Shown here one piece after another: positions 10,366 to 43,786 of a stretch of DNA of 64,000 nucleotides. The notes under the pieces are model-generated. The model made no database searches. It saw nothing but the letters and a program-made list of their open reading frames with translations, and was not told the DNA's origin. How positions within the stretch are numbered: position 1 is the first letter of the stretch; every line of letters begins with the position of its first letter. A program made the position numbers and the translations under genes. The stretch comes from Halobacterium wangiae (GTDB taxonomy: Archaea; Halobacteriota; Halobacteria; Halobacteriales; Halobacteriaceae): NCBI RefSeq assembly GCF_021249345.1, contig NZ_CP089588.1, positions 868,001-932,000 of the forward strand, in the 5' to 3' direction.

Positions 10366-10596
10366 TCAGCTCATCGAGATGTACGTCTCGGTGTCCTCGA
10401 CGCCGGGCGTGTTCTGGATGGCGTCGGCGGCGATCTCCTTCACGTCGGCCGGCGAGTCGACATCCACTCTCGCGATGAGGTCGACGTCGCCGGCGACGAG
10501 GTGGGCGTCGACGACCCCGTCAATGCCGGCCACTGCGTGGAGCAGGCGGTCGGCCTCCCCCGTGTTGGCCTTCACGAGGATGTAGGCGGTGACCAT
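10366..10596 (-). CDS. Free-standing RAM (Lrp/AsnC effector) domain protein
   Basis: 76 aa consisting only of the regulatory beta-alpha-beta-beta-alpha-beta RAM domain of Lrp proteins: MVTAYILVKANTGEADRLL, GVVDAHLVAGDVDLIARV, then PGVEDTETYISM. There is no helix-turn-helix. Such stand-alone modules bind small ligands or amino acids and can mix with full-length Lrp proteins. Its ATG (10596-10594) directly abuts the TAG stop of the TrkA-N gene, so they are one transcript and it may act with that protein. Confidence 0.9.
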   Translation of the reverse strand: MVTAYILVKANTGEADRLLHAVAGIDGVVDAHLVAGDVDLIARVDVDSPADVKEIAADAIQNTPGVEDTETYISMS

Positions 10597-14651: not shown

Positions 14652-15539
14652 ATGGACGTGCTGGTCACCGGCGGAACGGGATTCATCGGGAGGCACCTGT
14701 GTCGTGAACTCGACGAGCGCGGCCACGATGTGACCGCGCTCTCGCGGCACCCGGACGGAACTGGCCTGCCAGAGAGCGTCGGGACCGCGGTCGGGGACGT
14801 CACGGCGTACGACGCGGTGGCCGAGGCGATGGAGGGCCACGACGCCGTGGTGAACCTGGTCGCACTCTCCCCGCTGTTCAAACCGAAGCAGGGCGACGAG
14901 CGGCACCTCGACGTCCACCTCGGCGGCACCAGGAACGTCGTGCAGGCGGCCGAGGAGACGGGTGCGGAGTACGTCTTCCAGATGTCCGCCCTCGGCGCCG
15001 ACCCGAACGGCCCGACGGCGTACATCCGCGCGAAGGGCGCCGCCGAGTCCGTCGTCAGGGAGAGCGACCTCGAACACACTATCGTCCGGCCGTCGGTCAT
15101 CTTCGGCGACGGCGGCGAGTTCGTCTCCTTCACGAAGAAGCTGACCACGCCGTACCTCACGGGGCTCCCGGGCGGCGGGAAGACCCGCTTCCAGCCCATC
15201 TGGGTCGAGGACCTCGTGCCGATGCTCGCCGACTGCGTCGACGACGAGGACCACTGGGGGGAGACGTACGAACTCGGTGGCCCCGAGGTGTTGACCCTCG
15301 CGGACGTGGCTCGACTCGCCTACCGCGCGGAGGGGAAGTCGGTGCGCGTGCTCCCGGTCCCGATGCCGCTGGCCGGCATCGGGATGCGCCTCGCCGACCC
15401 GCTGCCGTTCGTCCCGTTCGGGACCGACCAGTACCGGTCGCTGAAGTTCGACAACACGGTCCGCGAGAACGACCTGTCAGCGTTCGGTGTGACCGAGTCG
15501 GAGTTGACAACGCTGGCGGCGTACCTGCGCCGCACGTGA
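14652..15539 (+). CDS. NAD(P)-binding protein, complex I NDUFA9-like SDR
   Basis: 295 aa with an N-terminal Rossmann motif GGTGFIGRHL and the atypical SDR features of the NDUFA9/YbjT group: SALGADPNGPTAYIRAKGAAE (in place of the classic YxxxK site, the Tyr and Lys are spaced Y-x3-K within AYIRAK) and TIVRPSVIFGDGG. A GGPEVLTLADVARLA stretch lies near the C-terminus. In mitochondria the homologue is a structural complex I subunit; archaeal forms are of unknown substrate, often linked to quinone or isoprenoid metabolism. It is followed by a hairpin at 15547-15561 and the cetZ1 promoters. Confidence 0.85.
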   Translation: MDVLVTGGTGFIGRHLCRELDERGHDVTALSRHPDGTGLPESVGTAVGDVTAYDAVAEAMEGHDAVVNLVALSPLFKPKQGDERHLDVHLGGTRNVVQAAEETGAEYVFQMSALGADPNGPTAYIRAKGAAESVVRESDLEHTIVRPSVIFGDGGEFVSFTKKLTTPYLTGLPGGGKTRFQPIWVEDLVPMLADCVDDEDHWGETYELGGPEVLTLADVARLAYRAEGKSVRVLPVPMPLAGIGMRLADPLPFVPFGTDQYRSLKFDNTVRENDLSAFGVTESELTTLAAYLRRT

Positions 15540-15546
15540 CGAGTCA

Positions 15547-15696
15547 GTAGGATGAACCTACCCGGAAGCTAATTTAAAAGGAACGGGTTGACCCTACTCG
15601 TGGCCGACAACTATATATCTGTCCCGGGGTCGCTTTCCCGCGAAAAGCAACGTGTACACTAAGCGGGGGAAAACGGGCCTGCAAAAGGCTTATAGG
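15547..15696 (+). promoter_or_regulatory. Long cetZ1 upstream region with three TATA-like boxes
   Basis: GTAGG-ATGAA-CCTAC (15547-15561) is a small hairpin just after the NDUFA9-like stop and may end that transcript. Three separate AT-rich boxes follow in this GC-rich genome: AATTTAAAAG (15571-15580), CTATATATC (15611-15619) and GCTTATAGG (15688-15696). The last leaves a leader of about 15 nt before the cetZ1 ATG; the others would give leaders of roughly 95-135 nt. Confidence 0.5.
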
Positions 15697-15731
15697 CCCC
15701 ATACTTCTCTAACTGTGCAAAGGGTTCCGTA

Positions 15732-16910
15732 ATGAAACTGGCAATGATCGGGTTCGGTCAAGCGGGCGGGAAAATACTCGACAAGTTCCTCGAGTACGAC
15801 AAGCGGCACGACTCCAACATCGTCCGTGCCGCCGTCGCCGTCAACACCGCCAAGGCCGACCTAATGGGTCTCGAACACGTTCCACAGGAGAATCGCGTCC
15901 TCATCGGACAGTCCCGCGTCAAAGGGCACGGCGTCGGGGCGGACAACGAACTCGGCGCGGAAATCGCCGAGGAAGACATCGACGAGATTCAGGGGGCTAT
16001 CGACAGCATCCCCGTCCACGAGGTCGACGCGTTCCTCGTCATCTCTGGTCTCGGCGGCGGTACCGGGTCGGGTGGCTCCCCGGTCATCGCCAAACACCTC
16101 AAGCGCATCTACACCGAACCCGTCTACGGTCTCGGCGTGCTCCCCGGCCGCGACGAGGGGGGCATCTACACGCTGAACGCGGCCCGCTCGTTCCAGACGT
16201 TCGTCCGCGAGGTGGACAACCTCCTCGTCTTCGACAACGACGCGTGGCGGAAGTCCGGCGAATCGGTCCAGGGCGGCTACTCGGAGATCAACGAGGAGAT
16301 CGTCACGCGCTTCGGCATCCTCTTCGGCGCGGGCGAGGTCGAACAGGGCGGTGCGGTCGCGGAGTCCGTCGTGGACTCCTCGGAGATCATCAACACGCTC
16401 GCCGGCGGCGGCGTCTCCACGGTCGGGTTCGCCTCCGAGGGCGTCGACAACGAGGGCAGCAGTAGCGGCCTGCTCTCCCGGTTCACGAGCAGCGACGACC
16501 CGGTCGAGGACTCGGCATCCACGACCAACCGCATCACGTCGCTCGTCCGGAAGGCGGCACTCGGTCAACTCACGCTCCCCTGCGAGATCGAGGGCACCGA
16601 GCGCGCGCTCCTGGTCACCGCCGGCCCGCCGAAGTACCTCAACCGGAAAGGGATAGAGCGCGGGCGGAAGTGGCTCGAGGAGCAGACCGGCTCGATGGAG
16701 GTCCGCGGCGGCGACTACCCCGTGCGGAACTCCAAGCAGGTCGCGTCGGTCGTCCTGCTGTCCGGCGTGAACAACGTCCCCCGTATCAAGGAGCTCCAGG
16801 AGGTCGCCATCGAGGCCCAGGACAACATCGACGACATCCGCGACGAAAGCGAAGAGAACTTGGAAGAACTCGTCGAAGACGACGACGATGAACTTGAGCC
16901 GCTGTTCTAA
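15732..16910 (+). CDS. cetZ1: Tubulin-superfamily cell-shape protein CetZ1
   Basis: 392 aa. The GTP-binding loop is GGGTGSGG (residues 108-115), and the T7 loop has Glu218 in DSSEIINTLAGG, the residue numbered the same in the studied Haloferax CetZ1. CetZ1 polymerises with GTP and governs rod shape and motility in haloarchaea. The ending (EELVEDDDDELEPLF) is the acidic CetZ1-type tail, and overall similarity to CetZ1 rather than CetZ2 or FtsZ is strong by eye. The last 23 bp overlap the next gene, so translation is probably coupled. Three TATA-like boxes upstream suggest complex regulation. Confidence 0.95.
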   Translation: MKLAMIGFGQAGGKILDKFLEYDKRHDSNIVRAAVAVNTAKADLMGLEHVPQENRVLIGQSRVKGHGVGADNELGAEIAEEDIDEIQGAIDSIPVHEVDAFLVISGLGGGTGSGGSPVIAKHLKRIYTEPVYGLGVLPGRDEGGIYTLNAARSFQTFVREVDNLLVFDNDAWRKSGESVQGGYSEINEEIVTRFGILFGAGEVEQGGAVAESVVDSSEIINTLAGGGVSTVGFASEGVDNEGSSSGLLSRFTSSDDPVEDSASTTNRITSLVRKAALGQLTLPCEIEGTERALLVTAGPPKYLNRKGIERGRKWLEEQTGSMEVRGGDYPVRNSKQVASVVLLSGVNNVPRIKELQEVAIEAQDNIDDIRDESEENLEELVEDDDDELEPLF

Positions 16911-18312: not shown

Positions 18313-18759
18313 ATGCAACTGAGACGGCTCGGGCGCGCGGCAGTCGCGCTCGTCGGCCTCGCGTTCGTCGCCGCCGTACTGTTCTCGGTGCTCCTGGCGG
18401 CCCTCGAGGCGGTCGGCCTCGCCCGGTCGACGGCCTCCCCGGCCGCGCTGGGTGGCGTCGTGTCGGCGGCGCTCGCCGCCGCAGACGTCTACACGCCGCT
18501 CGGGAACAACAGCCGGACGGCGACGCTGCGCGAGAAGCCCCGGGGAGCGCTCGCCGCCGACTTCGCGGCCGCGTCCGCAGTCGGCTTCGCCACCGGCGCC
18601 GTCGCCGGGGCGGTCCTGCTGTCGCCGGGAACCGCCGAGTGGACGAGGATGGGCGTGGTCGCGGCCGCCGTCCTCCTGGGCTACGGCACGTTCGTCGCGC
18701 GGAACGTCGCGGTGTACAGCCCCGGGTTCGGCGCCGGGGAGGACGGGTCCGAGCTATGA
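18313..18759 (+). CDS. Membrane protein between cofC and cofG
   Basis: 148 aa from the ATG at 18313, with four hydrophobic stretches (AVALVGLAFVAAVLFSVLLAAL, AALGGVVSAALAAADVY, AADFAAASAVGFATGAVAGAVLL, GVVAAAVLLGYGTFVARNVAVY). Its last codons overlap the cofG start (ATGA), so it belongs to the cof operon. The family is not recognised; nothing in it suggests catalysis. Confidence 0.7.
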   Translation: MQLRRLGRAAVALVGLAFVAAVLFSVLLAALEAVGLARSTASPAALGGVVSAALAAADVYTPLGNNSRTATLREKPRGALAADFAAASAVGFATGAVAGAVLLSPGTAEWTRMGVVAAAVLLGYGTFVARNVAVYSPGFGAGEDGSEL

Positions 18760-39239: not shown

Positions 39240-40328
39240 TCACAGCCGGAACTCGCCGTCGACGAAGCTCCGGGCGGTCGTCGTCACGTAGTCGACCAGC
39301 GGCGGGAACGTGGAGTCGTCGCCAGCCGCCAGTCGGCTCCGGTGGAGGTCCTCCCAGACGGTCGCGAGCACGAACGCCGCGTGCGCGAGGTAGTACTCCG
39401 CGTGCTCGACGTCGGACCCCGTCTTCGCCTCGTAGCGAGCGACTAGCTCGCGTCGAGTCGGCGTTCCGGGGTCGTTCGTGAACGGCGCCAGTCCGTCCTC
39501 GTTCACGTCACGCAGGTGGTCGATGGCCGCCTCGTCCGCGTGGCGCGCTTCGAGGTCGTCCAGCGACGGCGTCGGGTCGCCGTCGTCCCGCCAGCGCAAC
39601 AGCAGGTAGCCGAGTTCCGTTAGCGGGTCGCCGAGCATCGCCGTCTCCCAGTCGAGCACGCCCGCGATCTCGGGGTCGTCGTCACCAGCGAAGAGCACGT
39701 TCCCCGGCCGGTAGTCCCCGTGGACGAGCGTGGTCGCCGTCTCCGCGGGCGCGTGCTCCCGGAGCCACTCGCCGACGGCCCGGAGTTCCGGCACCTCCCG
39801 TCCGGTCGCGCTCGTCGCGTTATCCAGCCGCGCCATCGCCCGGTCGACCATCTCCGTCGGCGTCTGGCGCTCGCAGACGTCCGCGAACGGCCCGGGGTCC
39901 AGCGAGTGGATCTCGGCGAGCGTGTCGACCAGCCCCTCGGCCAGTCGCCGCCGCGCCGCCGGGTTCCGGAACCGCTCGGGCAGGTCCGACCCCAGCGGCA
40001 CCGCCTCGCCGTCGAGGAACGTCGTCACGACGAACTCGTCGCCGAACACCGACGCGTCCTCGCAGTGCAACACGGGTTCGGGCGCGGGAACGGCGGTGTC
40101 CGCGAGTCGCTCCAGCACCTGGAACTCCACGTCCAGGTCGACGACCAGGTTCGTCTCCCGCAGGTTCCGCGGTCGCCGGAGGACGTACGCTCGCTCCCGC
40201 TCGGCGGTCGATACGGCGAGCGAGAGGTTCAGCGCCTCGTGGAGCACCTCGACGTCGACGATCTCGTCGTCGAGTTCCGCGGAGAGGTAGGCTTCCAGGG
40301 CGGCAGTGTCGAGGTCCGCTTCGGACAT
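39240..40328 (-). CDS. APH-like phosphotransferase family protein
   Basis: 362 aa kinase-fold protein of the aminoglycoside phosphotransferase group. The N-lobe contains YVLRRPRNLRETNLVVDLD and EFVVTTFLDGEAVPLG. The catalytic loop is TTLVHGDYRPGNVLFAG (H-G-D-x-x-x-x-N) and the metal-binding Asp is in IAGVLDWETAMLGDP. Related archaeal and ACAD10/11-associated kinases act on small hydroxylated metabolites; this one's substrate is unknown and resistance is not implied. It converges with the HalOD1 pair. Confidence 0.9.
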   Translation of the reverse strand: MSEADLDTAALEAYLSAELDDEIVDVEVLHEALNLSLAVSTAERERAYVLRRPRNLRETNLVVDLDVEFQVLERLADTAVPAPEPVLHCEDASVFGDEFVVTTFLDGEAVPLGSDLPERFRNPAARRRLAEGLVDTLAEIHSLDPGPFADVCERQTPTEMVDRAMARLDNATSATGREVPELRAVGEWLREHAPAETATTLVHGDYRPGNVLFAGDDDPEIAGVLDWETAMLGDPLTELGYLLLRWRDDGDPTPSLDDLEARHADEAAIDHLRDVNEDGLAPFTNDPGTPTRRELVARYEAKTGSDVEHAEYYLAHAAFVLATVWEDLHRSRLAAGDDSTFPPLVDYVTTTARSFVDGEFRL

Positions 40329-40438
40329 GGTCGGAGAGAAACCGGGTGTCGGTAAAAGTCTCGTCGTGGTGTGATGGGGAGTGGCAGGCAGGACAGAGAG
40401 GAGGACATCGTCCCGTGTGACTGTTCGAGAAGACGGGA

Positions 40439-41095
40439 TTACGGTTCAGTCTTTGCCTCTTTCTCCCTCAACCACTCTTTGATTTCGTTGAGACCAAGTT
40501 GGTATCCAGAGGACCATTGAGACCGAATTACACCAACGAGAATCACCCCGAGGAAGGAGAACGCGCTTGTCAAAACTGCTTTGTTCCATTTTGCTCTAAA
40601 ACAGAGTACTTCATCTGGCATCCGAACAGTCAGTCCCTCATACGCTAGTTTTTCTGTAGTGACTTTTCCGATGATAAGATGTGTGCCAAGGAACCACGAG
40701 AATACCGTAATTAGAGCAGAGACACCACCCTGATACAGAGCTGACAAACCAAAGTCAGGAATCGAGATTGCAAAGAACGTCAATACGCCCACCACAAAGA
40801 TGCCCAGAACTTCAAGTTTATTAACAATCTTAACTCCCCTATCTAGGTGCCGATAGGCCTTTCCTGCGTCCCTCACTCCTTGCATTCCCGCATTTCGAAG
40901 CTCTGTCTTTTCGGAGATGTCGTATTCGCGGTCTACTGTCTCTACAAAGATCGTCTCTAAGTTATCTCGAAAACCTACAGCACCGTCTAAAAGGCCTAAT
41001 TCCCTCAGCCTCTTCTCCGTTCTGTCCTTCTCTGAACTCGGGAAAAGCTGGTTGTCATCCTCCTCAGGTATACCGTCTCTCTGTCCACCCACCAT
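40439..41095 (-). CDS. AT-rich predicted membrane protein, probably acquired
   Basis: 218 aa. Composition is unlike the rest: bases 40561-40620 contain 25 G+C of 60, against 39 of 60 at 40261-40320. Codons use A/T third positions freely. The first 90 residues are polar and acidic; hydrophobic segments at about 95-112, 120-142 and 172-190 predict three helices; the tail ends EWLREKEAKTEP. GATATTTTACC on the minus strand, 10-20 bp before the ATG, is TATA-like. No family recognised. It sits beside tRNA-Pro, a usual place for integrated elements. Confidence 0.7.
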   Translation of the reverse strand: MVGGQRDGIPEEDDNQLFPSSEKDRTEKRLRELGLLDGAVGFRDNLETIFVETVDREYDISEKTELRNAGMQGVRDAGKAYRHLDRGVKIVNKLEVLGIFVVGVLTFFAISIPDFGLSALYQGGVSALITVFSWFLGTHLIIGKVTTEKLAYEGLTVRMPDEVLCFRAKWNKAVLTSAFSFLGVILVGVIRSQWSSGYQLGLNEIKEWLREKEAKTEP

Positions 41096-41270
41096 GCCCT
41101 AATTGGTAAAATATCTACATCTTGAAAGCGTTTCCCCAGAGAGAAGCTACATCTCCTACGGACAACAACTGTACGCGGTTAACTGATGGAATGTCCCCAA
41201 CTTTAGCTAAGGACTGTACGTAGAGGTGGTTGCCAGGAAGGTACACCTCTAAGCCAAAATGCGGGAGAAG

Positions 41271-41343
41271 TGGGCCGGCGCGAATTCGAATCGCGGTTAC
41301 GGCCACCCGAAGGCCGAAGGATACCAAGCTACCCCACCGGCCC
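41271..41343 (-). tRNA. tRNA-Pro (anticodon CGG)
   Basis: 73 nt on the minus strand. Acceptor GGGCCGG/CCGGCCC with discriminator A at 41271. Anticodon stem CGGCC/GGCCG encloses TTCGGGT, giving anticodon CGG (plus positions 41307-41309, reversed). T-arm CGCGA-TTCGAAT-TCGCG. No intron. GTTAAAC on the minus strand at 41375-41369 is a plausible TATA box 26-32 bp upstream. The AT-rich stretch lies against its 3' end. Confidence 0.96.

Positions 41344-43786
<2,443 letters not shown>

Follow-up and report, generated by a model that had tools for sequence, protein, structure and literature searches.

The window analysed here is a 64-kb stretch (bases 868001–932000) of a 3.11-Mb haloarchaeal chromosome. 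An initial annotation, made from its letters, had singled out an AT-rich gene against the 3′ end of tRNA-Pro(CGG), described it as an orphan coding for a three-helix membrane protein with atypical codons, and read it as a horizontally acquired insertion at a tRNA hot spot with a possible defence or interference role. The gene (Table 1) is an intact open reading frame running from ATG to stop. Its product has three hydrophobic segments, in agreement with the proposed membrane protein, and its start lies 174 bp from the 3′ end of the tRNA, both genes pointing in the same direction. The block is flanked on one side by an APH-family phosphotransferase gene and on the other, beyond the tRNA, by a gene whose sequence reads as KatG-like.

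Table 1. Features at the tRNA-Pro(CGG) locus, in window coordinates (G027, the closest relative)
Feature	Coordinates	Strand	Basis
APH-family phosphotransferase gene (PF01636), conserved left flank	39240..40328	-	Pfam; G027 homology ends at 40374
Variable slot, 882 bp, no alignable counterpart in G027	40375..41256	-	Alignment with G027
Low-GC gene, helical protein with three hydrophobic segments, 218 aa	40439..41095	-	Member of tRNA/integrase-linked membrane-protein family
Leader between tRNA-side border and gene	41096..41256	-	
13 nt after the tRNA common to window and G027, right border	41257..41269	-	
tRNA-Pro(CGG), low-GC gene on its 3′ side	41270..41343	-	ARAGORN, cloverleaf fold, conservation
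KatG-like gene, conserved right flank, 5′ side of tRNA	41648..43786	+	

The tRNA-Pro(CGG) gene folds as a cloverleaf with all four arms and is matched at 96% identity or more in 26 of 26 genomes of the taxonomic family. The Rfam model (RF00005) did not report it, even at E ≤ 10; the same model does report the tRNA-Leu of the window (55.8 bits) and the tRNA-Pro(TGG) of a relative (53.7 bits). We kept the call despite this silence because the gene is conserved and has the cloverleaf structure. Two further ARAGORN calls, tRNA-Pro(CGG) at 18668–18747 and tRNA-Ala(AGC) at 43187–43279, are probably false; the latter lies inside the KatG-like gene, and both are absent from the Rfam list of the genome.

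Base composition sets the gene apart from its surroundings. Its GC content is 46.9%, and 100-base segments from 40450 to 41199 stay between 0.42 and 0.55 throughout, against 0.64–0.77 to the left of 40350. Across the 64 kb, 657-base segments average 69.1% GC (sd 3.5) and reach their minimum of 46.0% at 40567, with the only cluster below 57% spanning 40057–41668. GC at third codon positions is 47.5%, compared with 86.0–93.8% in four neighbouring genes. The GC and codon profiling that had been proposed as a check thus confirms a foreign composition, and this is the sole markedly low-GC block of the window. Outside the studied block, the lowest value of any 500-base segment was 57.4%, at 15501–16000, equal to that of 41001–41500.

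Comparison with the closest relative, G027, delimits the block. The KatG and APH proteins of this sister species are 86–88% identical to those of the window, the DNA is 88% identical on the side of katG and 84% identical across that of APH, and homology breaks at 40374 on the left and at 41257 on the right. Between the same borders G027 carries 1,682 bp of unrelated low-GC sequence (L017:3879–5560). A DDE transposase gene (PF01609) apparently interrupts a membrane ORF there, and a second ORF, of 81 aa, has two hydrophobic segments; Pfam matches neither of these ORFs. Across the genus, katG lies on the 5′ side of tRNA-Pro(CGG) in 12 of 13 genomes (it was not found in G056), and 1.4 to 7 kb further on, within the stretches read, 10 of the 13 have a conserved region that by eye is kinase/Nudix-like. 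The cargo in between differs from genome to genome: G107 has two genes for N6/N4 methylases, G056 one for a Schlafen AlbA_2 protein. The slot 3′ of tRNA-Pro(CGG) is a real variable site.

Single-sequence and profile searches found the window gene in none of the genus's 12 other genomes. This absence, together with the different low-GC cargo in the slot of the sister species, supports the proposed acquisition at a tRNA hot spot. Orthologues of normal GC at the same place in most haloarchaea, named in the initial annotation as what would speak against acquisition, were looked for and did not appear in any genus-mate. Separately, in four genus-mates (G107, G056, G088 and G064; L024–L027) the homologue of the window's APH-type gene lies 2.2–4.9 kb from the other proline tRNA, tRNA-Pro(TGG), in the opposite relative orientation.

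A further genome of the same taxonomic family, G165, carries a gene for an XhoI-type restriction enzyme 3′ of tRNA-Pro(CGG) (PF04555, E = 1.3e-51; PADLOC REase_II, 1.5e-64), accompanied by a 469-aa ORF that, judged by eye, reads like the matching methylase. The two fill the first 2.7 kb after the tRNA (L065:2462–5210). A 21-of-22 copy of the last bases of the tRNA follows at 2,722 nt (the best shuffled query reached 16 of 22), and behind this repeat comes the 3′ flank that directly follows the tRNA elsewhere (alignment score of 66 with G160, against 32 for the best of 30 shuffles). No integrase was seen in the insert. The bracketed restriction–modification (R-M) pair indicates that tRNA-Pro(CGG) is used as an insertion site. 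The G165 insert is a compact R-M cassette at a tRNA attachment site.

The window slot shows no corresponding far border. When the final 16, 22 or 30 nt of the tRNA were sought in the 5 kb that follow, the best copies were no better than those found with shuffled queries, in keeping with the earlier failure to find a repeated tRNA-Pro end. No integrase was detected in the slot, either as an ORF or as a tblastn trace, with the integrase stump of G162 (described below) serving as a positive control. The ancestral 3′ flank found in other genomes is absent from the window, and homology breaks off 13 nt past the end of the tRNA instead of exactly at it.

The description of the gene as an orphan did not hold: it belongs to a diverged family whose members stand repeatedly next to the 3′ ends of tRNA genes and to integrases of the tyrosine type. 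Searching 293 genomes of the order with the single sequence (E ≤ 0.01) returned five others, three of them strong (G134, G080 and G195; E 9e-18 to 6e-14), one weak but real (G162) and one false (G165). Profile searches, whose result sets overlap, found matches in 13 of 391 genomes at class level (including the genome of the window itself and one false match), in 18 of 392 at order level and in 11 of 392 at phylum level. A first scan of genome contigs found nothing, and a second found only Halovivax asiaticus JCM 14624, which is the same genome as G134. Among plasmid records, tblastn returned one match, in Natronorubrum aibiense (28% identity over 97%, E 2e-13); the same kind of search with the G162 member returned nothing. 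Queried with the window protein and the G052 member, tblastn detected no relative among 50,697 phage records, and scans of IMG/VR found no member. Two matches were dropped before any counting, because their ORFs, judged by eye, resemble a KaiC-like ATPase (G165, L005) and an ABC permease (G334, L101).

The window protein is related by sequence to the members found by profile, and its gene stands, as described, on the 3′ side of a tRNA, with no integrase beside it. The phylum-level search also recovered a second, distant member in the same genome (C1:310941–311492, E 3.9e-13). Its ORF (L157:7848–8633, C1:310848–311633) encodes 261 aa, has a GC content of 47% against 66% for its locus, and adjoins neither a tRNA 3′ end nor an integrase. 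In 18 complete or partial members, G334 being excluded, the GC content of the gene ranges from 38 to 53% and in 16 of them lies at least 6 points below that of the locus, the gap being small or nil in G080 (50 vs 53) and G327 (53 vs 53). Some copies are degraded, with that of G135 truncated to 68 aa and that of G067 carrying a stop. The G080 and G195 members, from different taxonomic families, are 70% identical, whereas G080 and the window gene, from one family, are 26% identical; identity out of step with kinship points to horizontal spread. Literature searches on integrases, tRNA sites, defence and superinfection, made without the protein itself, found no description of this membrane-protein family.

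Domain and structure comparisons placed the protein in no named family. At E ≤ 10 it had no match in PHROGs, PADLOC or NCBIfam, so that no anti-phage defence model corresponds to it among the PADLOC families. The sole Pfam match was to PF07332 (Holin superfamily III; E 0.37), and membership was rejected because the score of 11.3 bits falls below the Pfam cut-off of 28.4. An AlphaFold2 model computed from 16 diverged members is all-helical, with a mean pLDDT of 81 and a pTM of 0.73. It replaced a first model built from six sequences (pLDDT 57), which was discarded, and this rise upon adding diverged relatives fits a conserved fold. Foldseek found no match to the PDB or BFVD at E ≤ 0.001, and VIA-align gave no Z of 8 or more, recovering only common helical arrangements.

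We then counted genomic addresses at 25 loci: the window, 18 from the first two readings and six from a later one. The G214 gene, whose two pieces lie on separate contigs, was taken as a single locus, the false matches in G165 and G334 are left out, and G011 (E 8.4e-5, phylum search) stands outside the count. Seven of the 25 loci lie within 600 bp of a tRNA, on its 3′ side, and involve five kinds of tRNA: Pro-CGG in the window (G000), Ala-GGC in G195, Thr-CGT in G162, G272 and G214, Pro-TGG in G075, and Thr-GGT in G039. Two more, beyond this limit and uncounted, lie about 1.08 kb from tRNA-Ile (G052) and about 1.5 kb from tRNA-Arg (G400). A tyrosine integrase stands within 3 kb at 10 of the 25 (G080, G327, G272, G214, G351, G342, G135, G052, G357 and G039); six of the integrases were found independently by PF00589 and the rest by a profile built from those six. 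Background densities are about 13 tRNA genes per Mb (43 in 3.11, 52 in 3.6 and 46 in 4.0 Mb) and about 11 PF00589 matches per genome, corresponding to approximate chance rates per locus of 1.6% and 2.3%. With the limits of 600 bp and 3 kb, which were set after the data had been seen, the binomial P is about 1e-7 for tRNA genes (2.8e-5 if the three Thr-CGT cases are taken as one) and about 1e-10 for integrases. Among the loci with neither a tRNA 3′ end nor a near integrase are the members of G134 (integrase 11 kb away), G225 and G102, the first G055 copy, and the second copy in the genome of the window. At G195, two identical tRNA-Ala(GGC) genes (L020:7055–7127 and 10508–10580) lie 3.4 kb apart, each followed by a near-identical stretch of about 90 nt with a short further copy of the tRNA end, and the member gene stands after one of the two.

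Three related loci place the member between tRNA-Thr and an integrase gene or its stump. The order in G214 is integrase, 22 bp, member, 170 bp, tRNA-Thr(CGT); here the member gene is split over two contig ends, broken beside a gene that by eye is transposase-like. G272 has an integrase with a broken end, the member, about 170 bp and tRNA-Thr(CGT). In G162 (L022:9280–10430), tRNA-Thr(CGT), the member, a C-terminal integrase stump and a 24-of-26 copy of the tRNA end follow one another within about 1.07 kb, with the copy 1,045 nt from the tRNA. The stump comprises the last 65 codons of the integrase and is 74% identical to the G214 integrase over 65 aa. The G162 locus is the one-gene remainder of an element, with both of its borders still present.

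Because the family recurs beside tRNA genes and virus-type integrases, the most likely reading of the window gene is mobile-element cargo left behind. It is probably cargo of haloarchaeal elements that insert at tRNA 3′ ends by means of tyrosine integrases, stranded at this site. An element with such an integrase would insert at a tRNA 3′ end and bring a member gene with it; the window copy would have arrived in this way, and the integrase and the far attachment repeat would later have been lost, leaving the intact gene behind. As the window slot has neither an integrase trace nor a far repeat, this route for the window copy is reconstructed from its relatives. According to one study of the SNJ2 integrase family (PMC8371274), these integrases occur solely in Halobacteria and use a very short attachment site, so a lost repeat may be hard to see.

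An ancestral gene lost from most relatives, its GC low for other reasons, would fit the occurrence of relatives in several haloarchaeal families. Its presence is patchy, however, in the single-sequence and the profile searches alike, the sister species holds different cargo in the slot, identity does not follow kinship, and the third-position GC is far from that of the neighbouring genes; we consider such an origin very improbable. The gene might instead have arrived with an element and have no present function here, being the last piece of it to survive. The missing integrase and far repeat are consistent with this, as are the truncated G135 copy and the stop in G067, but the window frame has remained open over all 218 codons and the improved structural model fits a conserved fold, so that we regard a decaying passenger as quite unlikely.

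A further alternative concerns what the gene does. Its product could be a membrane-bound aid to the integration, replication or spread of the element itself, for example in the anchoring or release of a membrane-vesicle-like pleolipovirus, and have no part in defence. The member does adjoin the integrase: in G214 and G342 it follows immediately on the same strand, and in G272 it does so behind the broken integrase end. The integrase that was compared is of a type found in pleolipoviruses. Yet the accessory genes characterised in SNJ2 are, by its annotation, two small genes upstream of the integrase, unlike the window gene; the phage records and IMG/VR yielded no relative; and members persist without an integrase in the window, G195 and G075. 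On balance, a helper of this kind seems unlikely. Stranded cargo of tRNA-inserting elements remains our preferred account of how the gene came to lie here.

As to function, a role in defence or superinfection exclusion is plausible from the kind of cargo and from the membrane location. The product would reside in the cell membrane as a bundle of transmembrane helices, one face of which carries a helical N-terminal domain, and would shield both element and host against competing viruses or plasmids, either by blocking entry or by damaging the membrane upon infection. We regard a protective membrane-bundle protein of this kind as a possibility, short of a probable one. The defence role suggested at the outset has neither a PADLOC match nor a significant fold match of the protein in its favour, and the neighbours of members showed no clear enrichment over controls. 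Some of these neighbours are of defence type. A SIR2-type PDC-S65 gene lies near the G080 member (E 4.6e-184) and a type I methylase near that of G327; the N. aibiense copy has a TIR protein in its vicinity as well as one that is DUF262-like, and another DUF262-like protein accompanies the G357 member. The ten neighbour proteins in this comparison were picked by eye. At E ≤ 1e-15, 72 PADLOC models matched among 150 neighbour ORFs (of 151, one being left out for size), compared with 15 among 64 control ORFs. The control matches were mostly to general-helicase models, through four proteins, and those at member loci were to methylases, the SIR2-type PDC-S65, a DUF262-like protein and others. When hit proteins are counted, neighbours and controls do not separate, the frequencies being similar. 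Scanning ten more neighbours one by one added a single match, an AAA protein in the vicinity of G080.

These results place a supposed orphan in a family that can be recognised and that has a consistent location, at a tRNA 3′ end and on the side of the integrase, and make that family a marker for haloarchaeal integrative elements. They also mark tRNA-Pro(CGG) as a cargo site at which restriction systems and unnamed membrane proteins alternate, and as a place to look for new archaeal antiviral genes. A bolder reading, which we hold to be unlikely, is that this unnamed haloarchaea-wide family of integrase-linked membrane proteins consists of one-gene tRNA-end cassettes that protect the host or the element against rival viruses and can be mobilised in trans by the SNJ2-type integrases of other elements. 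Were this so, the G165 R-M pair, which has no integrase and is bracketed by the tRNA and the repeat of its end, would represent another integrase-less cassette at the same attachment site.

Among known systems, the SLATT proteins (SMODS- and SLOG-associated 2TM effectors) resemble the window protein in combining a helical domain with membrane helices. A BFVD structural match to a Fadolivirus protein so named was weak and non-significant (E 0.87, probability 0.60, TM 0.32). The window protein differs in having no Pfam SLATT match at E ≤ 10, and a SLATT_2 scan matched 0 of 59 genomes, with the controls silent too.

A second comparison is with SNJ2-type integrase elements, which include the betapleolipoviruses SNJ2, HRPV9 and HHPV4 and related integrated elements. 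The G214 integrase, the one compared and the basis of the SNJ2-type assignment, shares 38% identity with the SNJ2 enzyme and 41% with its HRPV9 counterpart, and against the integrases of HRPV9, SNJ2, HHPV4 and Harhisp1 identity is 36–41% over 98–99%. The window slot differs from such elements in having no integrase, no viral gene and no far direct repeat of the tRNA end, and the phage searches gave no match to its membrane protein.

Bacterial defence hot spots offer a third comparison. The window differs from them in that its cargo is a single membrane protein that corresponds to no known defence model and has a candidate protective role. P2/P4-type and core hot spots (PMC9122126, PMC10250203 and PMC10121019) are likewise single sites beside conserved genes, with cargo that varies between genomes. 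At tRNA-Pro(CGG) the cargo varies in the same way: G165 has an XhoI-type R-M system there, G107 N6/N4 methylases and G056 a Schlafen AlbA_2 protein.
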